DNA of 39,653 nt from Spirulina subsalsa CS-330 (GTDB lineage Bacteria; Cyanobacteriota; Cyanobacteriia; Cyanobacteriales; Spirulinaceae): assembly GCF_028330765.1 (NCBI RefSeq), contig NZ_JAQMTY010000239.1, positions 1 through 39,653 on the forward strand, written 5' to 3'. The notes beneath the pieces are model-generated. The model saw only the letters and a list, made by a program, of their open reading frames with translations. It had not been told where the DNA came from and made no database searches. Every line of letters begins with the position of its first letter. Position 1 is the first letter of the stretch. Positions 22,415 through 39,518 of the stretch are shown here, one piece after another. Both the position numbers and the translations under genes were made by a program.

Positions 22415-22661
22415 AAAAATCATCTCGATCCTCACGATCTCTTCAGGATTGCAGTCGTTTGCAAAGATCCACGCGCAAACTGTCAAACATGGACAACTTG
22501 AGGCATTTTACCCGCGTAAACTGTTTGAGATCAGGCTGATGTTTCCGATCACCATGGGATTGTTGAGATCCTGGAGAGTGAACCGATCGGCGGGACTGAA
22601 GCCCCTGTGCAACGGCGATCCAGGTGCGATCGCAGCACACCATCCCGATCCCCACACAACC

Positions 22662-25495: not shown

Positions 25496-27175
25496 ATGAA
25501 ACGACGCGATTTACTCAAGACCGGCACTGCATTTTCCCTCGGACTTTCCCTTGCTGCCACCCTCAAAGGTTGCACCCCAAATGCTACCGATAGCGCCGAC
25601 ACCCCCTCAGATTCCAGCACCGACAGCGGCGACAAGATCGTCTTAACCATCGTCCAAGGGGGAGGCTTTCCCAACAGTCTTGATCTCCATCGTCCCGGCA
25701 CCAACCGCCCCGCCTACGGGATTTCCTGGAGCATTTACGATCGCCTCATGACCTTCGGAACCAAAACCCTCGACGACGGCACGATCTCCTACGACTACAC
25801 CGAACTCAAGCCCGAACTCGCCGAATCCTGGGAAATCGCTGAAGATGGGATGTCTGTTACCTTTACCCTCCGTTCTGATGCGGTGTTTCATGACGGAACC
25901 CCCGTCACCGCCAATGATGTGAAATGGTCCTTTGATCGCGCTGTGAGCATCGGTGGATTTCCCACCTTTCAAATGAAAGCCGGAGCCTTAGAAAATCCCG
26001 AACAATTCAGCGTCGTTGATGATCAAACCTTTAAAATCGACTTCCTGCGCCCGGATAAATTAACCATGATTGATTTGGCCGTCCCCATCCCGGTCATTCT
26101 CAATTCCGAACTCGTTAAGCAACATCTCACCGACGAAGACCCCTGGGGCGCGGAATGGGTAAACAATAACGACGCGGGCAGTGGAGCCTATCAAATCGCT
26201 ACGTTTGAACCGGGTGAGCGGCTCACGTTAGAACGGTTTGAAGATTGGAAATCGGGCCCCCTCCCGGCGATCGCAGAAGTGATTATTTTAGATGTGCCAG
26301 AATCGGGTAATCGTCGGGCCTTGTTAGAACGGGGCGATATTGATATTAACTTTGAGGTGTCCGAAAAAGACACCGAGGAACTCACCGAAACCGGCGATTT
26401 CACCATCGTTTCAACCCCCATTGAAAACTGTGTCTATTCCATCGATATGCACAGCAATCCAGAGTTAGGCGGTGAACCGAATCCCTTTGGGGATGTGAAG
26501 GTGCGACGAGCGATCGCCTACGCCATCCCCTACGAGGAAATCATGCAAACCGCCTTCTACGGCCAAGCCATTCCCCTCTACGGTGCAGAATCTGAAACGG
26601 TAACAGACACCGCCTGGCCCCAACCCAGCCCCTACAACACCGACATGGAGCAAGCCAAAACCCTCCTCGCGGAATCCAGCTACCCCGACGGCTTTAGCAC
26701 CACCCTCGCCTTCGACCTTGGCACTCAAGAATGGGCCGAACCCCTCTGTGTTCTTGTTCAAGAATCCCTCGCGGAACTCGGCATTACCGTCACCCTTGAA
26801 AAAGTCCCCACCGCTAATTTCCGCAGCGTATTAACCGAGAAAACTCGCCCAATGATCGTCAATAACTTTGGCGGTTGGTTGAATTATCCAGACTATTTCT
26901 TCTTCTATGCCTACCATGGTCAAGATGCCACATTTAACGGTAGTTCCTATAAAAATTCTGAGATGGATGCGCTGATTGAAACAGCCTTAGAATCCGAACC
27001 AGGGGATGCAGAATATGAACAAGCAGTGAAAGATTTCATCACCTTAGCCTGGGAAGAAATGCCCCGGATTCCGATTGTGCAACCCACCCTATCCGTAGCG
27101 ATGCAAACCAATGTCGAAGGCTATCAATATTGGTTCCATCGTCAACTGGATTTCCGCCAACTCACAAAGGCTTAA
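25496..27175 (+). CDS. ABC importer substrate-binding lipoprotein, family 5 (peptide type)
   Basis: A periplasmic solute-binding protein of 559 residues for a Dpp/Opp-type importer. The N terminus MKRRDLLKTG with a twin arginine, a hydrophobic stretch and the lipobox-like LKGC (C26) suggests a Tat-exported lipoprotein, followed by a Ser/Thr/Asp-rich linker. Family signatures include ELKPELAESWEIAEDGMSVTF, LRSDAVFHDGTPVTANDVKWS and DVKVRRAIAYAIPYEEI. ATG 25496 is the only sensible start. The two permease and two ATPase genes follow in the same direction. The substrate cannot be told from sequence; dipeptides, oligopeptides, glutathione or metal chelates are family options. Confidence 0.92.
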   Translation: MKRRDLLKTGTAFSLGLSLAATLKGCTPNATDSADTPSDSSTDSGDKIVLTIVQGGGFPNSLDLHRPGTNRPAYGISWSIYDRLMTFGTKTLDDGTISYDYTELKPELAESWEIAEDGMSVTFTLRSDAVFHDGTPVTANDVKWSFDRAVSIGGFPTFQMKAGALENPEQFSVVDDQTFKIDFLRPDKLTMIDLAVPIPVILNSELVKQHLTDEDPWGAEWVNNNDAGSGAYQIATFEPGERLTLERFEDWKSGPLPAIAEVIILDVPESGNRRALLERGDIDINFEVSEKDTEELTETGDFTIVSTPIENCVYSIDMHSNPELGGEPNPFGDVKVRRAIAYAIPYEEIMQTAFYGQAIPLYGAESETVTDTAWPQPSPYNTDMEQAKTLLAESSYPDGFSTTLAFDLGTQEWAEPLCVLVQESLAELGITVTLEKVPTANFRSVLTEKTRPMIVNNFGGWLNYPDYFFFYAYHGQDATFNGSSYKNSEMDALIETALESEPGDAEYEQAVKDFITLAWEEMPRIPIVQPTLSVAMQTNVEGYQYWFHRQLDFRQLTKA

Positions 27176-27194
27176 CGATAGTCAATAATTTATC

Positions 27195-27240
27195 GCCCTC
27201 ACCCCAAACCCCTCTCCAAAAGAGGGCGGGGGGCTTCGGG
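27195..27240. repeat. CCCTC-type repeat, partial copy
   Basis: CCCTCACCCCAAACCCCTCTCC followed by a hairpin with AGAGGGCGGGG is a degenerate single-hairpin version of the repeats at 3291 and 12665. It lies just after the binding-protein stop and may stop or attenuate transcription before the permease genes. Confidence 0.65.
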
Positions 27241-27310
27241 ATATAGCCGATGGATTGAGAAAGCACTATCCCACCATCAAAGAGTAGATACCCTGGTTGA
27301 CTGACTTGAT

Positions 27311-27589
27311 AGCCCTCACCCCCGACCCCTCTCCCAGAGGGCGAGGGGAGCCGATCCATTTTTCCAGTTCCCTCTCCCCTAGAGCTACTGCTTATACACA
27401 ACGTTCTAAGGTTGACCTCGCCTGCGTTTAATCCCCCTCTGTCGTCAAGGCAGCGAGCTAGAAGCTCGCACTACAGAGGATTCTATACAAGGTAGTGTGA
27501 GCCTCTGGCTCACTCATATCCCCTCCAGATTCGTAACGTGGGTTATGTATAAGCAGTAGCCCCTAGAGAGAGGGCTAGGGTGAGGGCTT
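27311..27589. repeat. CCCTC-type repeat interrupted by a miniature element
   Basis: The left part (27311-27384) starts GCCCTCACCCCCGACCCCTCTCCC and reaches CCCTCTCCCCTAGAG. The right part (27560-27589) resumes with CCCCTAGAGAGAGGGCTAGGGTGAGGGC. Removing 27385-27559 and one copy of the duplicated nonamer rejoins the second hairpin, CCCTCTCCCCTAGAGAGAGGG. The 549-base gap between binding protein and permease is thus made almost wholly of repeats. Confidence 0.8.
27385..27559. mobile_element. 175-bp miniature inverted-repeat element with 9-bp target duplication
   Basis: Ends are CTACTGCTTATACA (from 27385) and TGTATAAGCAGTAG (to 27559), perfect inverted repeats of 14 bp that continue imperfectly (next to AAC and AACGTT on the left, GTT and AACG on the right). 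Both sides are flanked by the same nonamer CCCCTAGAG (27376-27384 and 27560-27568). The interior has no open frame but carries the hairpins GCGAGCT-AGA-AGCTCGC (27453-27469) and GTGAGCC-TCT-GGCTCAC (27497-27513). This is a textbook non-autonomous transposon layout; the parent family is not identified. Confidence 0.85.
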
Positions 27590-27724
27590 TCCGGGATCTG
27601 GCTAATCATCGTGACAGATTAGCGATCGCTCAACCCGATCATTAATGGGCAATATCTACTGGATAAAATGACTCATTTTGCTCGTTGCATGATTCGTGAT
27701 TGTTTCCCATTTCCTTAGAAGATC

Positions 27725-28747
27725 ATGGCCCAACAGTCTAAACTGCGCTTTATTATTCAACGCTTACTAGCTGCGATTCCGAGCATTATCGGGGTTGTGG
27801 TGGTGACGTTTATTTTGACCCGCGCCCTCCCGGGTGATCCAGCCGTATTTTTCGCCGGGCCTTCCGCCACCCAAGAAGCGATCGATCAAGTTCGTGCCAG
27901 TCTGGGCCTCGATCAAAGCCTACCAATCCAGTTTTTGCGCTATATCCAAGACCTGCTCAAAGGCGATTTTGGCGAATCGATCACCACAGGGCAAACGGTT
28001 TTATATGACCTCACCACGCGCCTCCCGGCTTCTTTGGAATTAACGATCGCTGCCTTGATTTTCGCCCTCGCGATCGCGCTTCCCCTCGGTATCGTTGCCG
28101 CCCTTTATCCCAACTCCAAATGGGATCACCTGATTCGCTTTTTAATGACCGCTGGGGTTTCATTGCCCACCTTTTTCACCGGGCTATTTCTCCTCTATGT
28201 CTTCTACTATCGTCTTAACATCGCCCCCGCCCCCACCGGACGTTTAGATCTTCTCACCTCTCCCCCGGATCGAATCACCGGCTTATTCTTAATTGATAGC
28301 CTCGTGACAGGGGATTTTGAGGTATTTATTCAGGCATTTTGCCAATTAGTCATGCCTGCCATTACCCTCGGAATTTTTGCCCTTGCCCCCGTCGCACGGG
28401 TGACGCGAGCCTCCATGTTAGCGGTGCTTAGTAGTGATTACATTCGTACCGCCCGCAGCCACGGATTAGCCCCGCTCAAAATTCTGTGGAGCTATGCGTT
28501 TCGCAATGCGTTGTTATCAATTTTGACGACGATGGGGGTGGTGTTTTCGTTTCTGTTGGGGTCGAATGTTTTAGTGGAAAAAGTGTTCGCTTGGCCGGGG
28601 ATTGGTTCCTATGCGGTGGAGGCATTGATTAGTTCAGACTATGCAGCAGTGCAAGGCTTTGTCTTAACGATGGCGTTGCTTTATATCGTGCTGAATTTAA
28701 GCATTGATATTATCTACGGCATGATTGATCCGCGAGCAGGTCAGTGA
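27725..28747 (+). CDS. dppB: ABC importer permease, DppB type
   Basis: The first of two inner-membrane subunits of the peptide-type importer, 340 residues with six predicted helices. It has the standard N-terminal helix (FIIQRLLAAIPSIIGVVVVTFIL) and the RALPGDPA and LGLDQSLPIQFLRY motifs of DppB/OppB. The cytoplasmic EAA-type loop that contacts the ATPase is YIRTARSHGLAPLKILWSYAFRNALL, and VLVEKVFAWPGIGSYAVEAL lies near the end. It is separated from the binding-protein gene by 549 bases of repeats, so a separate promoter or read-through is needed. The gene symbol is by type; the substrate is unproven. Confidence 0.92.
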   Translation: MAQQSKLRFIIQRLLAAIPSIIGVVVVTFILTRALPGDPAVFFAGPSATQEAIDQVRASLGLDQSLPIQFLRYIQDLLKGDFGESITTGQTVLYDLTTRLPASLELTIAALIFALAIALPLGIVAALYPNSKWDHLIRFLMTAGVSLPTFFTGLFLLYVFYYRLNIAPAPTGRLDLLTSPPDRITGLFLIDSLVTGDFEVFIQAFCQLVMPAITLGIFALAPVARVTRASMLAVLSSDYIRTARSHGLAPLKILWSYAFRNALLSILTTMGVVFSFLLGSNVLVEKVFAWPGIGSYAVEALISSDYAAVQGFVLTMALLYIVLNLSIDIIYGMIDPRAGQ

Positions 28748-28767
28748 TGATCCTCGCCTCACCTAAC

Positions 28768-28785
28768 AAGGGGCTTAAGCCCCTT
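28768..28785. repeat. 18-bp perfect palindrome between permease genes
   Basis: The sequence AAGGGGCTTAAGCCCCTT is perfectly self-complementary and starts 21 bases after the first permease stop. A related near-palindrome, AATGGGACTTAAGCCCATT, lies at 29772-29790 in the next gap inside a miniature element. Both are followed by TGCC(C/T)GTT, indicating common descent. Confidence 0.65.
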
Positions 28786-28846
28786 GCCCGTTGCAAATTT
28801 CGAGACCGTTGAGCGGCTAATTTTAGAGCCGAGGAAGAGTAGAAAC

Positions 28847-29692
28847 ATGACACTTTCATTACGTCATACACGCTATGTGATTGGAGAAAATGCGATTACC
28901 TTTGGGGCATTTCTCCTATTTTTAGGGTTCGTGTTGTTGGCAATTTTCGGCGATGCGATCGCACCCTACGACCCCCTCGCCAGTAATGCCAGTTTGGCCC
29001 TCAATCCCCCCTCGGCCCAACATTGGTTTGGTACTGATGCCCTGGGGCGCGATATTTTGAGCCGGGTTTTAGTGGCGACGCGGTTAGATTTGGGGATTGC
29101 GATCGCAGCGGTGGCGGCTTCATTTGTGGCGGGGAGTGCCTTGGGGGTTTTGGCGGGATATTGGGGGGGCTGGGTGGATGCGATCGCCGGTCGTGTGATT
29201 GACACGATTATGGCGTTTCCGCTGTTCGTCTTGGCGATGGGGATTATGGCCGCCCTCGGAAATTCCGTGGAGAATATTATCTACGCCACGGCAATTATTA
29301 ACCTACCCCTCTATGCGCGGGTGATTCGTTCGGAAGTCTTGGTAATTAAAACAGCGGGCTATATTGAAGCCGCTAAATTATCCGGCAATACGGATGTTCA
29401 AATCATGCTGCGCTATCTCTTCCCCAATGCCTTACCCGTGATGATGGTGCATATTTCCCTCAATATGGGCTGGGCCATTCTCAATGCGGCAGGTCTTTCC
29501 TTTATTGGCTTAGGGGTGCAACCCCCAACCCCAGAATGGGGAATCATGGTAGCTGAAGGAGCGACTTATATTATTTCGGGGGAATGGTGGCTGGCGATGT
29601 TTCCCGGCTTAATGTTGATGATCGCGGTGCTTTGTTTTAACCTCCTCGGTGATGGATTACGCGATTTGGTTGATCCTCGTAAACGAACTTAA
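28847..29692 (+). CDS. dppC: ABC importer permease, DppC type
   Basis: The second membrane subunit of the importer, 281 residues. DppC/OppC hallmarks are the N-terminal extension with one helix (ITFGAFLLFLGFVLLAIFGDAIAPYDP), the HWFGTDALGRDILSRVL motif, and the EAA loop YIEAAKLSGNTDVQIMLRYLFPNALP. ATG 28847 is chosen because GAGGAAGAG immediately precedes it; the upstream frame from 28784 runs through the palindromic repeat and has no family resemblance. A miniature element fills the 194-base gap to the ATPase genes. Confidence 0.92.
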   Translation: MTLSLRHTRYVIGENAITFGAFLLFLGFVLLAIFGDAIAPYDPLASNASLALNPPSAQHWFGTDALGRDILSRVLVATRLDLGIAIAAVAASFVAGSALGVLAGYWGGWVDAIAGRVIDTIMAFPLFVLAMGIMAALGNSVENIIYATAIINLPLYARVIRSEVLVIKTAGYIEAAKLSGNTDVQIMLRYLFPNALPVMMVHISLNMGWAILNAAGLSFIGLGVQPPTPEWGIMVAEGATYIISGEWWLAMFPGLMLMIAVLCFNLLGDGLRDLVDPRKRT

Positions 29693-29727
29693 AAAATAGG
29701 GTAGGCACTGCCTAATCATTTGAGTTT

Positions 29728-29821
29728 TATAGCGATCCTAAATCAATCGGAAATCTTATCTCCTCATCAACAATGGGACTTAAGCCCATTGCCTGTTCAT
29801 GAATCAAATAGGATTGCTATA
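29728..29821. mobile_element. 94-bp miniature element with TA-flanked inverted repeats (IS630-like)
   Basis: The left end TATAGCGATCCTAAAT (29728-29743) and right end AAATAGGATTGCTATA (29806-29821) are inverted repeats matching at 13 of 16 positions. The TAGCRATCCT arms are bordered by TA on both sides, as for IS630/Tc1-type insertions. The ends match a motif I know to be widespread in cyanobacterial genomes. The centre carries a CTTAAG-based near-palindrome (29772-29790). There is no open frame. Confidence 0.7.
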
Positions 29822-29886
29822 GGATGGTGGGTAATGCCCACTCTACGAATTAGAATTACTGTTAGTTTTGGGGTTAATGAATAACC

Positions 29887-30894
29887 ATGACTGTTGCAAG
29901 CATTCCTAAAACACAATTATTAAACATTGAAAATCTAGCCGTTGAATTTCGCACCCGTTCTGGGATTGTGAAAGCTCTCGATCAGGTGAGTTTTTCGGTG
30001 GCGGCGGGGGAAACCGTGGGTTTGGTCGGAGAAAGTGGGTCGGGTAAGTCGGTGCTGTCCTTGGCGATTTTGGGGATTTTGGATGCGGCGGCGCAGATTA
30101 CGGCGGGAACGATCGCCTTTGAAGGGGATAACCTCCTGACGATGCCGCGATCGCAACTTCGCGCTAAACGCGGCACGGGCATCGCGATGATCTTCCAAAA
30201 TCCCCGCGTGGCCCTGAATCCCATCCGCCGCATCGGTCAACAGTTGCGGGATGTGTTGATCGCCCATGGCGGCCTCACGAAAGCCCAATGTCAAACGCGG
30301 GCGCTGGAACTGCTGACCCAGGTGCGCATTCCTGACCCCCACCAACGGATTAACGCCTATCCCTACGAACTGTCGGGGGGGATGTGTCAGCGGGTGATGA
30401 TTGCCCTGGCGTTGGCGGGGCGGCCCAAGGTGTTGATCGCCGATGAGCCGACGACGGGGCTAGATGTAACTACTCAGGCGGCGGTGATGGAGTTAATCCG
30501 CGACCTGGGGCGGGAGGGACAAATGGGAACGATTTTGATTACCCATGATTTGGATTTGGCGGCGCAATATTGCGATCGCATCCTCGTCATGCACGCCGGG
30601 CATATTGTCGAAACCGCCCCGACGCGGTTGATCTTGACCCAACCCCGTCACCCCTACACCGCCAAACTCCTGGCCGCCACCCCCGACCCCCATAAACGCC
30701 TTGACGAACTCACCCCGATCGCGGGACATCTCCCGGATTTGCGGGGCACATTACCGCCCTGTCGGTTTCAGTCGCGGTGCGATCGCGCCATTCCCGACTG
30801 CGATCGCGCTCCCTTAAAACGACAAGCGATCGCCCCCGATCACACTGTCGCCTGTTGGCATCCCTTACCCCTATCGTCTGGAGTTGAATCATGA
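29887..30894 (+). CDS. dppD: ABC importer ATPase, DppD type
   Basis: The first ATP-hydrolysing subunit of the importer, 335 residues, cytosolic. It has Walker A GESGSGKS, the signature LSGGMCQRVMIALAL, Walker B VLIADEPTTGLD and the switch histidine in ILITHDLDLAAQYC. The C-terminal oligopeptide-type extension has HPYTAKLLAATPDP and a cysteine-rich end (PCRFQSRCDRAIPDC, ACWHP) that in relatives forms an iron-sulfur-like site. The stop overlaps the start of the next ATPase gene by four bases (ATGA), so translation is coupled. Confidence 0.95.
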   Translation: MTVASIPKTQLLNIENLAVEFRTRSGIVKALDQVSFSVAAGETVGLVGESGSGKSVLSLAILGILDAAAQITAGTIAFEGDNLLTMPRSQLRAKRGTGIAMIFQNPRVALNPIRRIGQQLRDVLIAHGGLTKAQCQTRALELLTQVRIPDPHQRINAYPYELSGGMCQRVMIALALAGRPKVLIADEPTTGLDVTTQAAVMELIRDLGREGQMGTILITHDLDLAAQYCDRILVMHAGHIVETAPTRLILTQPRHPYTAKLLAATPDPHKRLDELTPIAGHLPDLRGTLPPCRFQSRCDRAIPDCDRAPLKRQAIAPDHTVACWHPLPLSSGVES

Positions 30895-31910
30895 TCAGCC
30901 TTGACCCGCCCCCCCTGCTCAGCGTCGATCACCTGCGCAAATATTTCCCCACGGCCCGCCGTTCCTTCCTCAACCGGGATGCAGCCCCCCGCCTCCTCCA
31001 TGCCGTGGATGATGTGTCCTTTACCCTCGAAGCCGGGGAAAGTGTGGGACTCGTCGGGGAATCGGGTTGCGGTAAATCGACGCTGGTACGGTTGTTAACC
31101 CGTTTGCTTGACCCGACGAGCGGCGAGATTCGCTTTGAGGGGCGCGAAATTGGCGCGATCGCGGCTCCCAAATTTGCGCGGCATCCGTTGCGATCGCAAT
31201 TACAACTGGTATTCCAAGACCCCCACGACAGCCTCAACCCCCGCCATACCGCCTTCGACAGCATCGCCGCCCCCCTCAAACAGTTGGGCGGGTTTCAAGC
31301 CTCGCCCCTCCTCACCGCCCGCATTGAAGAATTAGCCGAATTGGTGGGACTTCCCGCCGCCCTGCTGTCCCGCTTTCCCCACCAACTGTCCGGCGGCCAA
31401 AAAGCACGGGTGGGCATTGCGCGAGCGATCGCCCTCCATCCCAAACTGTTAATCCTCGATGAACCCACCTCCGCCCTAGATGTCTCGGTGCAGGCGGTGA
31501 TTTTGCATCTGTTACAGGATCTCCAAGCGCGGTTAGGGATGAGTTATCTGTTTGTGTCCCATGATTTAAATGTGGTGCGGCTCTTGTGCGATCGCATTAT
31601 TGTCATGTACTTGGGGCAAATCATCGAAATGGGCCCCACGGATGCTATTTTTGACAACCCCCGCCACCCCTACACCCAAGCCCTGATCGCCGCCATCCCC
31701 GACCCCGGCACACCGCCCCAACCCCTCCAACTCCAAGGCGAACCCCGCAGCCCCATCGACCCCGACCCCCAGGTCTGCCGCCTCTACGGCCGCTGTCCCC
31801 ACGGAGTCGAAGCCTGCACCACCACCACCCCCCACCTCGAACCCATGGGCCCCGACCATGTGGCCGCCTGTCACCGCGCCGATGTGCTCAACCCGGCTCA
31901 ATTGCGATAA
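30891..31910 (+). CDS. dppF: ABC importer ATPase, DppF type
   Basis: The second ATPase subunit, 339 residues. It has Walker [10 protein letters not shown], a family insert [15 protein letters not shown], the signature [16 protein letters not shown], Walker [13 protein letters not shown], and the switch histidine in [14 protein letters not shown]. The C terminus contains [14 protein letters not shown] and a cysteine-containing end ([20 protein letters not shown]). It starts within the last codons of dppD. The operon ends at the hairpin 31943-31983. Together with the binding protein and both permeases it completes a five-component importer. Confidence 0.95.
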
Positions 31911-31942
31911 AGCGATCGCCCTCATTCCCGGATTGCTTCGGT

Positions 31943-31983
31943 ATGGTTAAGGGTGAGGGTGAACCTCCACCCTTAACCATTTT
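31943..31983 (+). terminator. terminator-like hairpin after the importer genes
   Basis: Perfect 13-bp arms ATGGTTAAGGGTG (31943-31955) and CACCCTTAACCAT (31968-31980) with a 12-base loop, followed by only a short T-run (31980-31983). It lies 33 bases after the last ATPase stop. The weak T-run lowers the certainty, but its position fits an operon end. Confidence 0.65.
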
Positions 31984-31987
31984 CCCT

Positions 31988-32065
31988 AGCGCGATGATGC
32001 AGGTGGAGATCCACAACGACGGCCCCGTGACCCTCTGACTCGAACGGGATGCGGCGACAGCCTAA
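31988..32065 (+). pseudogene. dtd: 3' remnant of D-aminoacyl-tRNA deacylase gene (dtd)
   Basis: In frame from about 31988 the sequence reads SAMMQVEIHNDGPVTL, a stop (TGA at 32036), then LERDAATA and a second stop at 32063. This matches the C terminus of Dtd, where MQV...NDGPVT is the conserved substrate-pocket motif followed by a hydrophobic residue and a short end. About 120 upstream codons of the enzyme are missing, and the TGA replaces a hydrophobic codon. A decayed fragment is the simplest reading. A functional dtd elsewhere in the genome, or its loss, cannot be judged from the window. Confidence 0.65.
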
Positions 32066-32156
32066 CGATCTCTCTATTCGCACCCCAAAATCTCAACAAA
32101 CTCCGTAAAATCACGAGGGTTGACCCAGAAGCCGATACAATAAAACGGGTTTTCCA

Positions 32157-32441
32157 ATGCAGCGAGTTGAGGGGACATTCAGCTTGAAAATGCGCCGAGT
32201 CGCTTGGGTGCAGCGAATATTAGCATTCCTCTACTTACTTTTAATGGTGTGGGGCTTGGGTGTTGGGACATTGGCTTGGATTGTTCGCGATGGCCTAGGC
32301 CCGGTTCCGGTTGCCTCCCAAGGCCGGGATGCCCTGGAGAATTTTTTCTTCACCTTTTCCTGGGGGCCGGTGATGTTTATCCTCTGTGGTGCGATCGCCC
32401 TCCTCTACTGGTATCTCACGGAGCTTCAACGGGCCGAATAG
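32157..32441 (+). CDS. small two-helix membrane protein, unknown function
   Basis: A 94-residue protein with two predicted transmembrane helices (ILAFLYLLLMVWGLGVGTLAWIV at about 20-42 and WGPVMFILCGAIALLYWYL at about 69-87) separated by a short loop with SQGRDALENFFFTF. I do not recognise the family. ATG 32190 (MRRVAWVQRI) is an alternative start with GAGGGGA upstream and would leave 83 residues. It lies alone between the dtd remnant and cruF, with about 280 bases before cruF. Confidence 0.6.
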   Translation: MQRVEGTFSLKMRRVAWVQRILAFLYLLLMVWGLGVGTLAWIVRDGLGPVPVASQGRDALENFFFTFSWGPVMFILCGAIALLYWYLTELQRAE

Positions 32442-32720
32442 CCCCCCTCGTCCCCATCAGCACCCCTTCTGCTTCACCAACAGGGGCGAATCCTGACCCC
32501 GCCACCGCCTTCAAATCCCCAATTTTCGTGAGCAGCTCCAAACTTCATCCCGCAAAAGGTGGAAGTTAAATGTGTAGAGATGTAAACTATTCATTAAAAA
32601 TAAGTTAAACCCTACACAGTTCAACGCGCACCCTTTCGCGTTTACTGTACAAAACAGCGGGCGGGAAACATCCGTAAGCTCGCACCACAACTACACTAAG
32701 GTTCTAGAGGTCTGAATTGG

Positions 32721-33653
32721 ATGAAACAGCTTGCTATTGCAGAGCGTTCTTTGCTCGCCGGTCATATTCTATCGATGGTGTTTGGCTTGGCAGGACTGCT
32801 GCTCGTCTTGCCGAACGCCGAACTGATTGCGAATCTTCCTGAAATAGGGAAAACCGTTTTTCAATGGTCAATGGCGGGCGGGGGTGTCGCATACATGCTG
32901 TTGGGAACCGCTGCCGTTGCCATCTATGTCTTCCGGACTATCGGAACCCGTCAAGGTCTTACGTTTATGCTGCCAGCGGTGTTTCTGTCCTTGGGGAGTG
33001 AACTCCTCGGCACGAGCACCGGCTTTCCCTTTGGCCATTACCGCTACCTGAGTGGCCTGGGGTATAAAGTGGCGGGCTTGGTTCCCTTTACCATTCCTCT
33101 GTCGTGGTTCTACCTCGGCATTTCAGCCTATCTCTTAGCCCGTGTGGGGTTAGAATCTCGGTTTCAGTGGTCGGCGTGGCTGCGGTTGCCGATCGCGATC
33201 GCCCTCGGTGCGCTCCTCCTCACCTCCTGGGATTTCGTCCTCGATCCCGCCATGAGTCAAACCAATGTTCCCTTCTGGATTTGGGAACAACCCGGCGCGT
33301 TCTTTGGCATGCCCTATCAAAACTTTGTGGGCTGGATGGGAACCGGCATCGTCTTCATGTCCGTCGCTACCCTACTGTGGCCCAAGCAACCCCTCGCCCT
33401 TTCGCGCCAGCAACTGGTGTTCCCCCTTGTGGTGTATCTCAGTAACCTGGCATTCTCCACGGTGATGAGCCTGGGGGCTGGGTTTGTGGTTCCGGTGTTG
33501 TTGGGCATGGTAACGGGTGTGATTCCAGCGATCGCCCTCTATTGGATGGCCCGCACCCCCGAAGCTGCGATCGAGCAAACCCTCGCTAACACCATGCGCG
33601 AAACCGCCGTCGTCACCCCCCCCGCCACCCTCCCCGTTGTTTCGACAAAATAG
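32721..33653 (+). CDS. cruF: carotenoid 1',2'-hydratase CruF (DUF422 family)
   Basis: CruF adds water to the psi end of gamma-carotene-type carotenoids on the way to myxol glycosides (myxoxanthophyll) in the membrane. The 310-residue protein has seven or eight hydrophobic helices and the family motifs GSELLGTSTGFPFGHYRYLSGLG, then LSWFYLGISAYLLA, TSWDFVLDPAMS and WIWEQPGAFFGMPYQNFVGWMG, rich in conserved acidic and aromatic residues. ATG 32721 starts right before the first helix. In many cyanobacteria the glycosyltransferase cruG is adjacent; it is not here. An intrinsic terminator follows, so cruF is probably a single-gene transcript. The tail after residue about 285 is threonine-, proline- and valine-rich and variable. 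Confidence 0.9.
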   Translation: MKQLAIAERSLLAGHILSMVFGLAGLLLVLPNAELIANLPEIGKTVFQWSMAGGGVAYMLLGTAAVAIYVFRTIGTRQGLTFMLPAVFLSLGSELLGTSTGFPFGHYRYLSGLGYKVAGLVPFTIPLSWFYLGISAYLLARVGLESRFQWSAWLRLPIAIALGALLLTSWDFVLDPAMSQTNVPFWIWEQPGAFFGMPYQNFVGWMGTGIVFMSVATLLWPKQPLALSRQQLVFPLVVYLSNLAFSTVMSLGAGFVVPVLLGMVTGVIPAIALYWMARTPEAAIEQTLANTMRETAVVTPPATLPVVSTK

Positions 33654-33679: not shown

Positions 33680-33721
33680 GTGGGATGTCTTCTGACTCAG
33701 AGGACATCCCACATTTTATTT
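33680..33721 (+). terminator. intrinsic terminator of cruF
   Basis: Arms GTGGGATGTC (33680-33689) and GACATCCCAC (33703-33712) are perfect over 10 bp and can extend inwards through a wobble pair; ATTTTATTT follows (33713-33721). It lies 27 bases after the cruF stop and insulates the injection-system genes. Confidence 0.8.
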
Positions 33722-34040
33722 GCCGTTAAGCACCATCGTTGCATGCGATCGCACCAGGGCGGGAAACCGAACGCGATCGCCCCCATCACGCCTTAACCTT
33801 TCGTTACCTTTAGGGCGGTTTTCCCAACATTTAGACCAAAGTCTAATAACCCTCATCGCCATTTATCGGTACGCTGAAATCCGAAGCTTCTCCTTCCAAC
33901 CTTAGATTGACTCATCAGCAGCTTGTCAGGGTGGAAGACAGTAGCCCCTGATTGGCTTGAACTCAAACCAACCATCCACCTCAGCGCATTGATGTGCATG
34001 CCTTGAAACATCGCTAATTCCAGACGGAGGATAGCCCCCT
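33722..34040 (+). other. upstream region of the contractile injection cluster
   Basis: About 320 bases with no supported gene, holding two HIP1 sites near 33748 and 33774 and presumably the promoter of the sheath gene. Complementary segments GGTGGA (33930-33935) and TCCACC (33974-33979) could form a long leader hairpin. A strong ribosome site, GGAGG (34026-34030), stands 10 bases before the sheath ATG. Confidence 0.45.
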
Positions 34041-35780
34041 ATGGCCTTGGACTATTTTGCACCCGGTGTCTACGTCGAAGAAGTAGACCGTGGCAGTCGC
34101 CCTATTGAAGGGGTCAGCATGAGTGTTGCGGGCTTCATTGGGTACACCGAAGACGTTCGCGGTGACGCGGAACTCTTCAAGCCCATGATGATCACCAACT
34201 TCGATCAATATCTAGAATATTTCGGCAAACCCGGCTCGGACGGCTTCACTGAATTCAAAAAAGCCGCCGACGACGGCAGCGAAGAAACCTACTATCCCTA
34301 CCTTCCCTTTGCAGTTCAGGGATGGTTTCTCAATGGTGGCGGTCGCTGCTGGATCACCAGCATCGGCACTAAACTGCCGGGCACACCTGCCCCCCCACCC
34401 GAAGAAGTATCCACCCCCGTCATGACCGCCGGGGGGAAACCCTCCCTCGCCTTTAATGTTGCCACCAGTGAAGAAGATGGGGCTGCGTTGGCTCCCGCTG
34501 GCAGCGAAGACGCTCGCCTGCGGGTGGTGATCACAGAAAGCACCCCGAAACCCCCGGAATCCGAGGATGACGAACCGCCCATTGATGACGGTCAATTCTT
34601 CCAACTCAGGGTTGTTCTGGGCGAAACCGTCCTCGAAGAGTACGACCACCTGAGCATGAATCCTGAGGTGGAAACCGCTGTGGCAGACTATGCGGTAACA
34701 GCGATCGCCGACTCCGAATACGTCACGATCAACGACATTTCCGTCAGTGGTCAAGCCCTCTCCCGCCGCCCCGCCAACGGCGTTTTTGAAATCGCACCAC
34801 CCCCCTACATCTCCCCCGTCAACAACGCCACCCGTGACATCACCGGGAACCGTAACGACAAAACCGGGATGCAGGGCATTTTCGAGGTGGATGAGGTCGC
34901 CATGATCGCCTTCCCCGACCTGATGCTACTGTTCCAAGCCGGAATTTTAGACTTGGATCAAGTGCATGGCGTGATGGAATTGATGGTGAGCCTCTGTGAA
35001 AACTCCTTCCCAGGGCCGCCCTACCGGATGGCTGTGATCGATCCGCCGCCGATTAAACCCGGCAAGAGCAATGATCCAGTAGCCCCCGAAACCCAAAAAC
35101 CCCAGGATGTGGACGCTTGGCTCACCAGCTTTAACCGTCGCTCCATGTTTGGCGCTCTCTACTATCCCTGGATTAAAGTCGCCAACCCCGCGAATGCCGG
35201 TCGTCCTCTGATGGTTCCCCCCTCCGGGCACATGATGGGCGTTTGGTGTCGCGTCGATGGCACACGCGGCATCTTCAAGGCTCCCGCCAATGAAACCCCC
35301 CGTGGTGTTCTTGGTCTCGCCTACGAAACCAACACCCGCGAGCAAGAACTGCTCAACCCGAAAGGCATCAACTGTATTCGGAACTTCGCCAACTACAACC
35401 GAGGCTACCTGATTTGGGGCGCACGGACGTTGGTAGACCCGACGAATATTCAATGGCGGTATATCAGTGTGCGCCGGTTGATGAGCTATGTTGAAAAGTC
35501 CATTGAGATTGGGACGCAGTGGGTCGTTTTTGAACCGAACGATGCCGATCTGTGGTCACGGGTGACGCGGACTGTCAGCAACTTCCTCGAAGGGTTGTGG
35601 CGTGCGGGTGCGCTCCAGGGTGGTTCACCGGGTGAATCATTCTATGTGAAGTGCGATGCTGAACTGAACACCCACGAAACCATGATGATGGGTCGGCTGT
35701 ATGTCGAAGTGGGGGTCTGTCCTGTCCGCCCGGCTGAATTTGTGATCTTCCGGGTCAGTCAGTGGGCACCGGGAGCGTAA
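34041..35780 (+). CDS. contractile injection system sheath protein
   Basis: A phage-tail-sheath family protein of 579 residues, the contracting outer tube of a phage-tail-like injection machine. The start MALDYFAPGVYVEEVDRGSRP and VAGFIGYTEDVRGD are classic sheath sequences. The C-terminal domain has EKSIEIGTQWVVFEPND, then a WRAGALQGGSP segment, the FYVKCDAELN motif and a VCPVRPAEFVIFRVSQW end that links neighbouring subunits. Residues about 112-255 are a surface domain that begins with a proline/glutamate-rich stretch. It is one gene only, whereas Afp and PVC particles have three sheath genes. Three tube genes follow directly, and no capsid or packaging genes are present, so an eCIS or thylakoid-anchored tCIS-like particle is more likely than a prophage. 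Confidence 0.95.
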   Translation: MALDYFAPGVYVEEVDRGSRPIEGVSMSVAGFIGYTEDVRGDAELFKPMMITNFDQYLEYFGKPGSDGFTEFKKAADDGSEETYYPYLPFAVQGWFLNGGGRCWITSIGTKLPGTPAPPPEEVSTPVMTAGGKPSLAFNVATSEEDGAALAPAGSEDARLRVVITESTPKPPESEDDEPPIDDGQFFQLRVVLGETVLEEYDHLSMNPEVETAVADYAVTAIADSEYVTINDISVSGQALSRRPANGVFEIAPPPYISPVNNATRDITGNRNDKTGMQGIFEVDEVAMIAFPDLMLLFQAGILDLDQVHGVMELMVSLCENSFPGPPYRMAVIDPPPIKPGKSNDPVAPETQKPQDVDAWLTSFNRRSMFGALYYPWIKVANPANAGRPLMVPPSGHMMGVWCRVDGTRGIFKAPANETPRGVLGLAYETNTREQELLNPKGINCIRNFANYNRGYLIWGARTLVDPTNIQWRYISVRRLMSYVEKSIEIGTQWVVFEPNDADLWSRVTRTVSNFLEGLWRAGALQGGSPGESFYVKCDAELNTHETMMMGRLYVEVGVCPVRPAEFVIFRVSQWAPGA

Positions 35781-35788
35781 TTGATCAC

Positions 35789-35822
35789 ACTGGGAGCCGT
35801 TGATGATTCGATGGCTTCCAGT
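35789..35822 (+). promoter_or_regulatory. hairpin between sheath and first tube gene
   Basis: Arms ACTGGGAGCC (35789-35798) and GGCTTCCAGT (35813-35822) pair at all ten positions if one G-U pair is allowed, with a 14-base loop and TTTCC after. It stands 9 bases after the sheath stop and 72 bases before the tube start. It may attenuate transcription or protect mRNA ends and so set sheath-to-tube ratios. Confidence 0.4.
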
Positions 35823-35893
35823 TTCCTTGGCTCGCGTGATGGGCTGGGGTCCGATGAAATAGTATGCGGGTTCGTGTTTAGCAGGAGGCTGTA

Positions 35894-36367
35894 ATGGCAG
35901 AGTTGAATCCAATTCCAACAAGTCGATTTTATTTAGAGTTTGATGGTCTTACTGAAAAGTTTGTGGCCAGTGTGGCGGAGTTTTCCTTTGAGGGGAAAAC
36001 CACCGGCCATGAAAAGCCGTTAGCCTCAACGAAGGACGGCAAAACCCTTTGGCAAAGTACCTCCGCCGGGTTTACGGATAACCCAGATTTTGCGGTGGAA
36101 ACCTATCTCGTCGAAGGGGATATGGATTGGTATAACTGGATGAAGTCCACGATGCCGAAGAGTGAAGGGGGGGATGGCAAGTGGAAGGAAAGCCGCAAAG
36201 CCGGAACCCTAACCGCCTACAACAGTATGGATGAGGCGGTGATGGAGTGGAAAATCGTCAATGCTTGGGTGAAGAGCTACAGCGTTTCGGATTTTTCGGC
36301 GGATGGGGCTGAATTTGTCAAAGAAACGTTTGAGATCGTCTGTGAAGATGTGAACCGGACGAAGTAA
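35894..36367 (+). CDS. contractile injection system tube protein 1 (gp19-like)
   Basis: A 157-residue inner-tube protein of the T4 gp19/Afp1 family, which stacks in hexameric rings inside the sheath. Family features are NPIPTSRFYLEFDGL at the start, AEFSFEGKTTGHE, a central YNWMKS helix and AGTLTAYNSMDEAVMEWKI leading to the final strand with WVKSYSVSDFSADG and ETFEIVCEDVNR. A good ribosome site (AGGAGG, 35882-35887) precedes ATG 35894. It lies between sheath and a second tube gene. It differs clearly from the other two tube proteins and may be the main tube or an end-ring subunit. Confidence 0.9.
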   Translation: MAELNPIPTSRFYLEFDGLTEKFVASVAEFSFEGKTTGHEKPLASTKDGKTLWQSTSAGFTDNPDFAVETYLVEGDMDWYNWMKSTMPKSEGGDGKWKESRKAGTLTAYNSMDEAVMEWKIVNAWVKSYSVSDFSADGAEFVKETFEIVCEDVNRTK

Positions 36368-36458
36368 ATCGGGATTGATGGGGCGCGATCGCACCGCGAT
36401 CCCCCATTCATCTCACCCCTATCACTTTTAATTTGGACAGCTTACTGGGAGCAAGATT

Positions 36459-36932
36459 ATGGCAAGCGGAGAGCTTCTAGCCAACTCGAAATTTTACATC
36501 ACGATTGACGGCTACGATGAACTGATCATCAAAAGCGTCAGCGGTTTAAGCATTACCCTAGAGGTCGCCGGCTCGGATTCATCCTACGGGGTCACCAAAG
36601 ACGGCAAAAGTGTCGTCCAAGCCACCGTCACCGGGGTCAGCAACTCCAACATCACGGTCGTTTTTGTCGGCACCGCCGACGATCGCCGCCTCTTCGACTG
36701 GTGGGATGCCTCCCACTCACGGGAAATCACCGGGGGCGGTTCCGGCAGCAAAGGGGAACGCAAAACCGCCAGTGTCACCCTCTTCAACCAAGGGGGAGAA
36801 TCGGCCGCACAGTGGGACATGACCGGGGTGTTTCCCGTTAAATACACCGGCACCCAATTTAGCCCTGACAGCACCGACCTCTACACCGAAACCATCGAAT
36901 TTGCTTACGAAAACTTGCATCGGATCAAGTAA
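36459..36932 (+). CDS. contractile injection system tube protein 2 (gp19-like)
   Basis: A second 157-residue tube-family protein: LANSKFYITIDGYDELIIKSV, then SGLSITLEVAGSD, the RRLFDWWDASH helix, RKTASVTLFNQGGESAAQWDM and VFPVKYTGTQFSPDSTD, ending IEFAYENLHRI. Its pattern is the same as tube 1 but with low identity by eye, so this is not a recent duplication. GGGAGCAAG precedes the ATG. A HIP1-containing hairpin region (36378-36407) lies between it and tube 1. In known systems different tube paralogues form the shaft and the layers next to the baseplate; which role this one has cannot be told. Confidence 0.9.
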   Translation: MASGELLANSKFYITIDGYDELIIKSVSGLSITLEVAGSDSSYGVTKDGKSVVQATVTGVSNSNITVVFVGTADDRRLFDWWDASHSREITGGGSGSKGERKTASVTLFNQGGESAAQWDMTGVFPVKYTGTQFSPDSTDLYTETIEFAYENLHRIK

Positions 36933-36956
36933 GCAAACCTGAATCGCAGATCAGGA

Positions 36957-36983
36957 GGAGGGGGCAACCGGATTGACCCCTCC
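36957..36983 (+). promoter_or_regulatory. hairpin between second and third tube genes
   Basis: Arms GGAGGGG (36957-36963) and CCCCTCC (36977-36983), loop 13 bases, followed by CATTCGTGTTTT. A second small hairpin CCCC-TCTA-GGGG (37000-37011) lies close to the ribosome site of the third tube gene. It may be an attenuator or processing site; there is no strong T-run. Confidence 0.35.
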
Positions 36984-37021
36984 CATTCGTGTTTTAAACC
37001 CCTCTAGGGGAGGTTAAGGAG

Positions 37022-37531
37022 ATGGCCAAAAAAAAGAAAAAAACGGGAGAATTGCCCGAAATTCTCAGTAACAGCAAGTTTTACGTGGAATTATCCCTCG
37101 ACGACAGCGAAGAAATCGATGCCTTTTTCATGGAATGCAGCGGGATGAATCGCTCGCTCGACGTGATTGAACTCGCAGAAGTCACCCCGAATAAATGGGG
37201 AAAAGGCGGCAAAGGAACCTACGGACGGATTCGCCGCACCAAACTCCCCGGCAATGTGAACAGCAGCAACATCACCTTAAAGCGGGGACTGTGTAACTCC
37301 ACCACGATTTGGGATTGGTTCACGGCGGTGGCGGTGGGTCGATGGTTTGAAAAATTCCGCGATGGGGATATCACAATCTACGACCAAGGCCATATTGAAC
37401 AGGCCCGCTTTCGGTTTACAGGGGCGTGGCCCAGCAGTTACACCATCGGGGACTTGGCGGCTGGGGGCAGCGAGTTGGAAATTGAAGAAGTGGAATTAGT
37501 GGTGGCTCAGTTTTATCGAGTCAGTAACTAA
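37022..37531 (+). CDS. contractile injection system tube protein 3 (gp19-like)
   Basis: A third tube-family member, 169 residues, with a lysine-rich start (MAKKKKKTG) before the common LSNSKFYVELSLDDSEEI. It keeps the fold markers FFMECSGMNRSLDVIELAE, TLKRGLCNSTTIWDWFTAV, DGDITIYDQGHIEQARFRF and WPSSYTIGDLAAGGSELEIEEVEL. Its insert KWGKGGKGTYGRIRRTKLPG is basic and absent from the other two. AAGGAG lies right before ATG 37022. The basic N terminus and insert set it apart, consistent with a baseplate-proximal tube layer (Afp5-like) by analogy, which is inference. Confidence 0.88.
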   Translation: MAKKKKKTGELPEILSNSKFYVELSLDDSEEIDAFFMECSGMNRSLDVIELAEVTPNKWGKGGKGTYGRIRRTKLPGNVNSSNITLKRGLCNSTTIWDWFTAVAVGRWFEKFRDGDITIYDQGHIEQARFRFTGAWPSSYTIGDLAAGGSELEIEEVELVVAQFYRVSN

Positions 37532-37639
37532 AACGTGGGAAAACGCCATCAGATTGAGTGCCGCTACTGGGTTGGGCCGCACGGTCTCGTAAGATAGGAA
37601 TTCCCATTGATTAATCCTGCATAACATTCGACAAGCATT

Positions 37640-37939
37640 ATGATTCAAACCGAGTTTGAATTTACCCTTCCCAAGGGATATCTAGACCCTGAGGGTAATT
37701 TGCATCGTACTGGGGTGATGCGTTTGGCGCGGGCGATGGATGAGATTGTGCCGATGCGCGATCCACGGGTGAAGGGTAACCCCGCCTACGCAACAGTGAT
37801 TATTCTGTCACGGGTGATTATTCGTCTCGGAGCTTTAGAAGACATTAGCCCCAGTGTGATTGAAGATTTTTTTGCGGCGGATTTGAACTATCTGCAAACG
37901 TTTTATCGCCAGATTAATGAACTTGAAGACGAAGCGTAG
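37640..37939 (+). CDS. tail-assembly-type small protein, paralogue A
   Basis: A 99-residue acidic protein: MIQTEFEFTLPKGYLDPEGN, LHRTGVMRLARAMDEIVPM and a helical C-terminal half with SVIEDFFAADLNYLQTFYRQIN. The F-x-L-P-x-G-Y-x-D-x-x-G-x-x-H-R-x-G-x-M-R start resembles phage tail assembly proteins of the Mu gp41 type, which chaperone tail parts. It follows the third tube gene by 108 bases and precedes a clearly related gene by 11 bases. I infer an assembly or baseplate-associated function. Confidence 0.7.
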   Translation: MIQTEFEFTLPKGYLDPEGNLHRTGVMRLARAMDEIVPMRDPRVKGNPAYATVIILSRVIIRLGALEDISPSVIEDFFAADLNYLQTFYRQINELEDEA

Positions 37940-37950
37940 GATAGGGGTTG

Positions 37951-38271
37951 ATGATGCAACGTGAATTTGAATTCACCCTCCCTAAGGGCTGGCTGACACC
38001 GGATGGGGAACTGCTGCGTTCTGGGCTGTTGCGATTGACGACGGGGCAGGATGAGTTAGTGGCGCAGGCGGATCGTCGTGTGCTTGATGATCCGAATTAT
38101 GTCTCGTTAGTTTTGTTGTCGCAGGTGATGACTCGCTTGGGCCATTGGACGCAGATCACACCGGAGCATCTAGAGACGCTGTTTTTGCGGGATGTTTATT
38201 ATTTGCAGTCGGTGTACAGGTTGATTAACCAAGATGATCCGGGTGAGGTGATGCCGGTGGGGGAATTGTAG
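37951..38271 (+). CDS. tail-assembly-type small protein, paralogue B
   Basis: A 106-residue protein related to the preceding gene: REFEFTLPKGWLTPDGELL, RSGLLRLTTGQDELVAQADRR, and LETLFLRDVYYLQSVYRLIN at the end. Identity is moderate and the domain order identical, so it is an old tandem duplication. ATG 37951 follows TAGGGG closely; a TTG one codon earlier is less likely. It overlaps nothing; the next small gene starts 8 bases after its stop, implying tight coupling. Confidence 0.7.
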   Translation: MMQREFEFTLPKGWLTPDGELLRSGLLRLTTGQDELVAQADRRVLDDPNYVSLVLLSQVMTRLGHWTQITPEHLETLFLRDVYYLQSVYRLINQDDPGEVMPVGEL

Positions 38272-38279
38272 GCTACCCC

Positions 38280-38408
38280 TTGGCGCAGCTTTATCAAGAG
38301 GTAGCCTATATTGCCCTGCATTTTCACTGGTCACGGGATGAGATTTTGGCGTTGGATCATCGGGAGCGGCGGCTGTGGGTGGCGGAAATTAGTGCGTTGT
38401 TGGCATGA
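38280..38408 (+). CDS. very small Afp6/DUF6760-like injection-system protein, TTG start
   Basis: A 42-residue protein: MAQLYQEVAYIALHFHWSRD followed by EILALDHRERRLWVAEISALLA. The pattern (L-Y-x-E-V-A-x-I-A-x-H-F-H-W, then a helix with D/E-HRERRxWV-x-EIS) is that of the short proteins found after the tube genes in contractile injection clusters (DUF6760; Afp6/Pvc6 position). The frame is open only from 38247 and has no ATG or GTG, so TTG 38280 is taken as the start. An upstream ATT at 38265 would add VGYPL, which also looks family-like. GGGGGA at 38259-38264 could serve either. The stop overlaps nothing and the next gene starts 21 bases later. Confidence 0.7.
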   Translation: MAQLYQEVAYIALHFHWSRDEILALDHRERRLWVAEISALLA

Positions 38409-38429
38409 GCAGAGGTAGGTCGTGTTGCG

Positions 38430-39518
38430 ATGACTCAGAATGATTTAGTGGCGGCGGCGCGACGGGGTGAACCGGATGCGATCGCATCTCTGCTCAATCG
38501 CCAACTCCGCACCAAAGGCATGACCGTGCGCGTCACGGCCCAGGGCGAACAGATCACGATTCTCGTTGAAGCAGTAACGCCACCGCCCCAAGCCCCCCTG
38601 GTTAACTATCTACGCCATGCCTTTACACAATTAGCCGCCCCGACGATCCACCGCCTCCGCATTTGTGGCACGCAACAGGGAGCCGCAACCATCTCTTGGA
38701 CTACTGAACTGGAGCTAACCCCGCCCTCTCCCCCGCCCTTGGAGGAGATCCCCTCACCGCCATCGGAACCCCTCCCCCCACCCCCTAAGCCGTCCGACTA
38801 TCCATCCCCGCCCCGTCCCGATTCGCCATCACCGCCCTTAGATCCCTTACCACCGCCGCAACCCCCCACCTCTGTACCCACCGCATCCGATCCCCCCTCG
38901 CCTTCCGGCGCAAAAACACCCCGGCTGTTGGGGGAATGGTTTTTGGTGTCCGGTGGGGCGGGGTTGGTGGCGGTGGTGGTGCATTATGGGCTGGGCGCGA
39001 TTTTAGGGGGTTTACCGGGGGCGATCGCACCCTGGCTCGTGGATGCAGTAACCGGCCTCGTGTTGGGCATTGCCCAAAGCTATGTTTTGACGCGCTATCT
39101 CGAAAAATCCCATTGGTGGGCGGTGACCTATCTGGTGCTGCCCATATTGGCGCTGGTTCCCACCTTGATTGCGATTTTGGGGGTTTGGGGCCTGCAAGCG
39201 TGGATTTTAGGAACCCGGGTGCGGCGATCCTATGGGTGGATTTTGGGCAATATGGCGATGGTGGTGGTGTTTGCGGGGGTGGCGATCGCCGGCATTATTC
39301 TGCTGCGGGCGTTAGTTTTTGTCCTGAGTTTTGCCACGGTGTTTTTATATTGGCTGGCGGGGATGATTCTCGCGGCCTTGATGCTGTTGATTCAAGGGGC
39401 AATTTTAGAACGACTGTTCTATGGTGTGCCGGAGCGATCGCGCCCTGACCCGGATCAATACCTCCAGCACCTTTGCGATCACATTCAGGAAGACTTGCAA
39501 CGCCTCATCGCTCGTTGA
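38430..39518 (+). CDS. proline-rich multi-helix membrane protein with cyanobacterial N-terminal domain
   Basis: A 362-residue protein in three parts. Residues 1-95 form a small alpha/beta domain (LVAAARRGEPDAIASLLNRQL, then RTKGMTVRVTAQGEQITILVE) that I know from many cyanobacterial proteins of unknown function. Residues about 96-165 are a proline/serine-rich linker. Residues about 168-330 hold five or six hydrophobic helices (LVSGGAGLVAVVVHYGLGAIL, WAVTYLVLPILALVPTLIAIL, MAMVVVFAGVAIAGIILL, LYWLAGMILAALMLLIQ), and the C terminus is soluble and acidic. It starts 21 bases after the Afp6-like gene in the same direction. Its place in the cluster allows a role in membrane attachment of the particle, but that is inference; it could equally be an unrelated neighbour. 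Confidence 0.75.
   Translation: MTQNDLVAAARRGEPDAIASLLNRQLRTKGMTVRVTAQGEQITILVEAVTPPPQAPLVNYLRHAFTQLAAPTIHRLRICGTQQGAATISWTTELELTPPSPPPLEEIPSPPSEPLPPPPKPSDYPSPPRPDSPSPPLDPLPPPQPPTSVPTASDPPSPSGAKTPRLLGEWFLVSGGAGLVAVVVHYGLGAILGGLPGAIAPWLVDAVTGLVLGIAQSYVLTRYLEKSHWWAVTYLVLPILALVPTLIAILGVWGLQAWILGTRVRRSYGWILGNMAMVVVFAGVAIAGIILLRALVFVLSFATVFLYWLAGMILAALMLLIQGAILERLFYGVPERSRPDPDQYLQHLCDHIQEDLQRLIAR

Follow-up and report, generated by a model that had tools for sequence, protein, structure and literature searches.

Several contractile injection systems (CIS) described in the literature bear on the locus considered here, and they are cited as far as the available sections of the papers go. Solved structures exist for the subtype IId CIS of Streptomyces coelicolor (entries 8BKY and 8BL4, PMC10066040; 9GTP, 9GTR and 9GTS, PMC12237407) and for that of Halogeometricum borinquense (9EZM, PMC11566945). 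An operon of an extracellular CIS (eCIS) has been defined by core genes grouped within 12 kb, with at least 10 core genes per group (PMC8213781). Cyanobacterial class IId regions are mentioned for their effector homologues in PMC10020575, the available sections of which do not describe scattered loci. Here we analyze a stretch of 39,653 nucleotides from Spirulina subsalsa CS-330 (contig NZ_JAQMTY010000239.1; this whole stretch is called the window), at the right end of which one sheath gene is followed by three tube genes. We read this locus, with a probability of roughly 0.8, as the sheath and tube module of an IId-like CIS (Streptomyces lineage), complete but with dispersed genes, in a Spirulina-type cyanobacterium. 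The parts themselves are known; the scattering of an otherwise complete, co-inherited system is not described in the literature consulted, and the accessible part of the open-access literature yielded no account of a cyanobacterial CIS with dispersed genes.

The sheath-tube module and its right flank

The module consists of six genes:

34041..35780, + strand: contractile sheath (Cis2), 579 amino acids; Pfam match, nearest solved relative the S. coelicolor CIS sheath
35894..36367, + strand: gp19-type tube paralogue 1, 157 amino acids; Pfam Phage_T4_gp19, E 1.3e-15; own group in the tube tree
36459..36932, + strand: gp19-type tube paralogue 2, 157 amino acids; Pfam Phage_T4_gp19, E 6.3e-21; shares a side of the tree with tube 1
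37022..37531, + strand: gp19-type tube paralogue 3, 169 amino acids; Pfam Phage_T4_gp19, E 4.8e-27
37640..37939, + strand: g41a, small tail-assembly-like protein, 99 amino acids; weak match to phrog_508, E 0.0021
37948..38271, + strand: g41b, paralogue of g41a, 107 amino acids; weak match to phrog_508, E 0.0037

The Pfam matches at the sheath (Phage_sheath_1C, E 1.5e-19; Phage_sheath_1, E 9.7e-11) and at all three tube genes bear out the first-pass annotation, which had listed one sheath and three gp19-type tube genes on a single strand. It had also listed two tail-assembly-like paralogues and an Afp6-like small protein. The pair is present, with 45% identity between g41a and g41b and 66-89% between g41a and 15 other aligned copies, although its match to phrog_508, the PHROGs family 'tail assembly chaperone', is only weak; a profile search of solved structures with g41a gave no match at E 1. 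No separate Afp6-like protein was found, the sole further open reading frame (ORF) of the stretch (38430-39518) being without a family.

The window is the entire contig C229 of its genome (G000; 304 contigs, 98.6% complete), and it stops at position 39653, 135 bp beyond the last gene, because the contig ends there in the assembly. The right flank was examined in G105, a genome of the same genus assembled into two contigs (the main one of 4.99 Mb, 5.1 Mb in total), which carries the module with proteins 90-100% identical to those of the window. The module is followed there by an opposite-strand gene for 514 amino acids with no Pfam match, a sulfate permease and other genes of ordinary kinds. 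The next 24 kb contain 105 ORFs (at least 60 amino acids), and at E 1e-3 not one of them matches a set of 46 CIS-related reference proteins that includes the parts of both CIS of the genome. Thus the window does not open a CIS cluster in this lineage, and the prediction that spike, gp25 and effector genes would continue it to the right fails in G105. The sheath locus has at most six core genes, with none following, and falls outside the eCIS operon definition of PMC8213781, as far as the available text of that paper gives it. The first-pass annotation would have given up a CIS if no baseplate or spike gene stood nearby. This is literally the case; the CIS assignment stands nonetheless, the missing parts being elsewhere on the chromosome and co-inherited.

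The remaining parts lie at distant loci

Five gp19 matches were found in G000, three in the window and two on contig C230, and two gp25 matches, on C230 and C58. Contig C58 carries consecutive genes for gp25, the baseplate J protein gpJ (TIGR02243, 606 bits) and a Tail_P2_I protein (gpI); C62 encodes a CIS_tube protein (Cis7-like; no LysM domain was called in it, unlike its C230 counterpart) together with a VgrG-related protein; and C97 encodes the cap protein Pvc16. In G105 all four markers are on the main contig (sheath at 172 kb; gpJ, 441 kb; Pvc16, 773 kb; VgrG, 3789 kb), so that the distance from the sheath is 269 kb for gp25-gpJ-gpI, 600 kb for Pvc16 and 3.6 Mb for the Cis5-like tube/Cis7-like/VgrG locus. 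One genome therefore holds a full CIS part set (sheath, tube, gp25, gpJ, VgrG-type spike and Pvc16-type cap). It does not form the single gene cluster of subtype IId, the four G105 loci being spread from 172 kb to 3789 kb over one contig.

Pvc16 of G105 is adjoined by a histidine kinase and a LuxR-type response regulator (GerE domain). At the G105 spike locus a fourth gp19 protein and a 1328-residue protein without a family precede the Cis7-like gene; the solved matches near the top for this gp19 protein, called Cis5-like here, include All3323, Pvc5 and Afp5. In the Spirulina-type loci L015 and L018 the response regulator and Pvc16 come after the tube module, with one gene between; this unit therefore sits apart in the window's lineage.

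A second, complete CIS cluster is found on C230 of G000 (L004, L005) and in G105 (L139/L140). It comprises two sheaths, two gp19 tubes, gp25, Pvc16, a spike tip, Tail_P2_I, base-V, GPD and CIS_tube/LysM proteins, and two baseplate-J proteins, one of them under the cut-off. An eCIS_core protein adjoins the C230-type cluster in G105.

Co-inheritance, linkage and selection

A sheath of the window type is present in 42 of the 148 genomes of the order (at least 476 bits; next genome 251). The C58-type gpJ occurs in all 42 (best piece at least 238 bits; next genome 115), the C62-type VgrG in 41 (at least 481 bits; next genome 171) and the C97-type Pvc16 in 41 (at least 218 bits; next genome outside the 42 at 102), and none of the three occurs in any of the other 106. 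The score limits were placed in clear gaps after the scores had been seen. The genomes are related, so hypergeometric values for this co-occurrence are not independent tests; none of the 106 is an exception. Because sheath, gpJ, VgrG and Pvc16 occur together in the same genomes and are absent from the rest, they are most likely components of one dispersed system.

Nineteen genomes have the markers on a single contig (three markers and a weak Pvc16 in G046) and allowed linkage to be counted; in the remaining 23 of 42 the markers lie on different contigs or one of them is missing. In five of the 19 no step between neighboring markers exceeds 20 kb, in nine they are split within about 50 kb, and in five they are far apart: at four places in G105, three in G088, three within 136 kb in G046, and two in G060 and in G126. 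That the modules adjoin in some relatives (5/19) speaks for one dispersed system.

Between G000 and G105 the ratio of nonsynonymous to synonymous substitution rates (dN/dS) is 0.049 for the sheath, 0, 0.077 and 0.063 for tubes 1-3, 0.044 and 0.164 for the g41a/g41b pair, 0.027 for both the Cis7-like protein and VgrG, and 0.150 for Pvc16. Several of the underlying counts are small, and the parts covered lie at three loci (sheath-tube, spike and cap); these parts are under purifying selection (dN/dS 0-0.16).

Closest solved relatives

Compared with solved structures, the window sheath gives 340 bits with the S. coelicolor CIS sheath (residues 4-578), 276 with that of H. borinquense, 183 with Anabaena All3325 and 22-25 with T4 gp18. 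The C58 gpJ matches S. coelicolor at 365 bits, the next match being at 37 and none to Anabaena at E 0.01, and the C62 VgrG scores 162 bits with S. coelicolor and 83 with Anabaena. Sheath, gpJ and VgrG thus have their best matches in subtype IId (8bky, 9gtp, 9gtr), and sheath and baseplate are not nearest to All3325/All3317; a reading of the window system as a thylakoid-anchored CIS (tCIS) is not supported. The nearest named relatives of the window sheath are from Spirulina sp. Judging by these matches, two systems of the broad S. coelicolor lineage seem to be present in the genome, and no near tCIS relative was met among them. A contrast of the window system with C230 as an Anabaena-type tCIS was dropped, since C230 too matches S. 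coelicolor best.

Three tube paralogues

The set of three tubes beside one sheath had been singled out as a departure from the Afp/PVC plan. It does differ from that plan, yet it is the rule in its own lineage: among 79 loci (some cut by contig ends, some representing the same genome twice) three tube genes stand beside the sheath in 58, two in 13, five in two (L016 and L018), four in one, one in two and none in three. In the unrooted tree of 79 tube rows each paralogue forms one group (support 99/94 for tube 1, 93/80 for tube 2 and 89/88 for tube 3); tubes 1 and 2 are on one side, and tube 3 is on the other with the spike-locus and C230 tubes. The three paralogues are old and kept, and three is the norm of the lineage.

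The best solved matches of tube 3 are the tube proteins 7adz_1a (37.7 bits) and All3324 (37.0), whereas in NCBIfam it scores higher with the CIS5 adaptor model (48.7 bits) than with CIS1 (23.3), both far under the cut-off. Given this disagreement, and with tube 3 the only one compared with structures, its assignment as the main tube was not adopted. Five consecutive tube genes stand by one sheath at L016:11866-14669 and L018:11839-15213, where the tube1-tube2 pair is doubled; in L018 one copy begins with a long serine-rich stretch.

A palindrome upstream of the sheath

33831..33846, no strand assigned: palindrome TTAGAC-N4-GTCTAA, candidate operator, 210 bp upstream of the sheath start

This palindrome is present in 7/7 aligned Spirulina-type sheath upstream regions, two of them near-identical, with one outer base changed in L015. 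TAGAC-N4-GTCTA occurs in 21 of 77 sheath upstream regions (up to 400 bp), from Spirulina, Pseudanabaena and a few others, and in letter-shuffled upstream regions even the best copies differed from the 16-base core at two or more positions. The exact 14-mer TAGACYWWAGTCTA is found at two places in the 5.1 Mb of G105, upstream of the sheath and 120 bp before an ORF of 224 amino acids with no Pfam match. The latter belongs to an island (L151:5723-11463) of four short ORFs, two of them with an eCIS_core domain, and an AAA+ ATPase as the last gene; a second copy inside the island, with one mismatch, lies 86 bp before a 162-residue eCIS_core ORF. Two further one-mismatch copies lie at 2.010 and 4.537 Mb of G105.

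The 23 loci around exact sites include three with the site before a window-type sheath (L158, L173, L174); the other 20 have CIS genes by blast only in L156, where the site is between convergent genes. Counting G000 and G105, five of the 42 genomes with the window-type sheath have an exact site in front of it. G000 has one-mismatch sites on C3 and C27; the surroundings of the C27 site were inspected and gave no tie to a CIS gene. The response regulator is present in 15/15 Pvc16-holding loci with the site and in 16/37 without it. This count is biased, as three of the four regulator references come from site loci and 13 of the 15 loci are Pseudanabaena-type, leaving few independent cases, and it leaves out six further site loci that hold no Pvc16. 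In G060 a 717-residue protein and a row of three similar proteins of 356-377 residues diverge from one exact palindrome (L182:3523-9359), and an AAA+ paralogue broken into two frames has a palindrome about 330 bp upstream (L181:3717-5757).

AAA+ paralogues and candidate cargo islands

The eCIS_core domain, which we take to be the newer name of DUF4157, is found beside AAA+ paralogues at 14 of the 26 loci taken for AAA+ matches (L151, L154, L179-L181, L183-L203). Four of these 14 have weak scores (22-29 bits, home-made profile), and L186, L202 and L203 adjoin C230-type clusters. Loci without AAA+ contain the domain in 5 of 142 cases, namely in four stretches linked to a CIS and in L149, which overlaps L151, and over all 204 sequences it is present in 30 of the 62 with AAA+; in this tally many loci overlap and their lengths differ. 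The proximity is an association and no proof of cargo. No AAA+ paralogue could be assigned to the window CIS, several genomes, G000 included, having more than one close copy. The DUF4157 domain has been linked to CIS toxins in the available text of PMC8213781.

The palindrome before the sheath and before island ORFs is a lead towards a regulon, not a demonstrated one. A dispersed CIS run as a regulon, with a four-locus particle, cargo islands (eCIS_core with its own AAA+ paralogue) and a LuxR-type regulator that binds the palindrome to turn on the sheath operon along with some genes of the islands, is a tentative proposal that we consider rather unlikely.

Other features of the window

38430..39518, + strand: 362-residue proline-rich protein with hydrophobic segments (by eye); no family match
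33680..33712, + strand: 15-pair terminator-like hairpin separating cruF from the sheath operon

The 362-residue protein has no match in Pfam, NCBIfam or PHROGs. Its gene is present in G105 (dN/dS 0.259 against G000), was not seen at six other Spirulina-type loci looked at, and is probably a neighbor, not a CIS part. As it was not seen beside the module at those six loci, its interpretation as a CisA-like membrane anchor was dropped. The hairpin has the longest stem of 12 terminator-like sites in the stretch that holds it, against 7.7 in shuffles; a promoter scan gave nothing useful. The spacer between sheath and tube 1 (35781-35893) folds far better than shuffles (z -3.9) into a long stem, and it may govern the ratio of sheath to tube. 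Near cruF, a 94-residue protein (32157-32441) has a weak BrkB match below the cut-off (E 0.0023). PHROGs revealed no head gene among ten large ORFs scanned at 17855-33653, nor among five module proteins and the 362-residue protein. The claimed lack of capsid, portal and terminase genes is thus confirmed for the scanned ORFs, and for the other ORFs of the window it was judged by eye; around the other CIS loci none was seen by eye.

Alternative explanations

A number of observations weigh against a complete dispersed IId-like system. G076 has no strong VgrG match, and G046 has no strong Pvc16 match, only one of 67 bits by its sheath. In G000 neither the Cis5-like tube nor the beginning of the spike locus was found, as C62 begins inside the long protein and no sixth gp19 turned up, and C97 ends just above Pvc16; the missing neighbors at both loci were seen in G105 only. 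The subtype was assigned by best match and not by a tree with published clades, a coarse test, as the C230 control also matches S. coelicolor best. The palindrome is missing from 56 of 77 sheath upstream regions; it was not found at the gp25, spike and cap loci of either G000 or G105, and two candidate cargo islands of G000 lack it as well (best matches at these places with 3-4 mismatches of 12), and over the 148 genomes it is no commoner than a reversed control (46 versus about 60 matches). Its absence from the gp25, spike and cap loci leaves a common control of the structural loci unsupported, and with the genome-wide number at or below the control the palindrome was rejected as their master operator.

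The alternative that survives best, falling somewhat short of even odds, accepts a real machine but has it released (eCIS) or membrane-anchored (tCIS or like a type VI secretion system, T6SS) instead of free in its own cell. According to the available sections of the respective papers, a membrane-anchored CIS exists in Anabaena (PMC8894136) and a haloarchaeal relative acts as a T6SS (PMC11566945). However, the nearest solved relatives of the window system belong to the cytoplasmic CIS of S. coelicolor, and no tail fibre or anchor was identified, though no systematic search was made for either.

That the module is a spare sheath-tube set, swapped onto the baseplate of the complete C230 CIS, appears quite improbable. 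C230 does offer a complete CIS in the same genome, and both systems match S. coelicolor best. Yet in 27 of the 42 sheath genomes this sheath is the only match, and three more show just another piece of it; the window-type system is therefore independent of the C230 type. In addition, gpJ and VgrG types of its own accompany the window sheath in 42/42 and 41/42 genomes.

Slightly less probable still is a relic, that is, scattered pieces of a former CIS heading for loss. The scattering itself and the lack of a baseplate gene by the sheath would suit such decay, whereas open frames and strong purifying selection at three loci, joint retention in 42 genomes and tube paralogues kept over much of the order do not. 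A prophage or phage-tail remnant is very improbable: sheath, gp19 and tail-assembly families are common to phages, but the ten large flanking ORFs scanned contain no head gene, the co-inherited cap and spike are of CIS families, and the best solved matches are to CIS, with T4 gp18 at only 22-25 bits, in agreement with the first-pass annotation, which had preferred a CIS to a phage.

Proposed organization and significance

Under the preferred interpretation, a dispersed IId-like CIS, the products of the separate loci would assemble into one phage-tail-like particle. By homology, the window locus would supply the sheath and tubes, the Cis5-like and Cis7-like proteins would join the tube to the VgrG spike, gp25-gpJ-gpI would form the baseplate, and Pvc16 the cap. 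One of the three tubes may serve as the main tube and the others may form special rings, and the response regulator adjacent to Pvc16 might act through the palindrome before the sheath. The least certain step is that the particle would stay cytoplasmic and fire in its own cell under stress, which we infer because cytoplasmic Streptomyces particles kill the producing cell under stress.

Cluster criteria like those available from PMC8213781 would miss the window locus. Published surveys search for gene clusters, and a co-inherited but scattered system may escape them or pass for a fragment, so such CIS may outnumber current counts in cyanobacteria. Among the relatives, arrangements range in a natural series from a single locus to four, in which one can ask how a many-part machine keeps functioning once its operon breaks up, and the palindrome and AAA+ islands provide testable leads to control and cargo.

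Comparison with known systems

The S. coelicolor CIS (subtype IId) likewise combines one sheath with several gp19 tube genes and is the best solved match for sheath, gpJ and VgrG (PMC10066040, PMC12237407). Its genes form one cluster, sco4242-sco4260, in which cis1a and cis1b are the two homologues of the tube gene, whereas here there are four loci, three tubes by the sheath and a Cis5-like tube by the spike. The class IId eCIS regions of filamentous Cyanobacteria (PMC10020575, available sections) are of the same subtype and phylum. The Anabaena tCIS is also cyanobacterial and has sheath, tube, Cis7, VgrG-like spike, baseplate and cap, as its available description gives them (PMC8894136); it differs in its single cluster, all3313-all3327, a much weaker sheath match and no gpJ match. 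The Afp and PVC particles are built of homologous parts, but have three sheath proteins each (Afp2-4, Pvc2-4) in place of one sheath with three adjacent tubes. The nearest split case met, within the text available, is the two-part cluster of H. borinquense (clade IIa), which has a related sheath and whose structural genes fall into two subclusters with about 8.7 kb between them (PMC11566945). Its parts lie in one region of one plasmid, whereas those of the window system are hundreds of kilobases apart.

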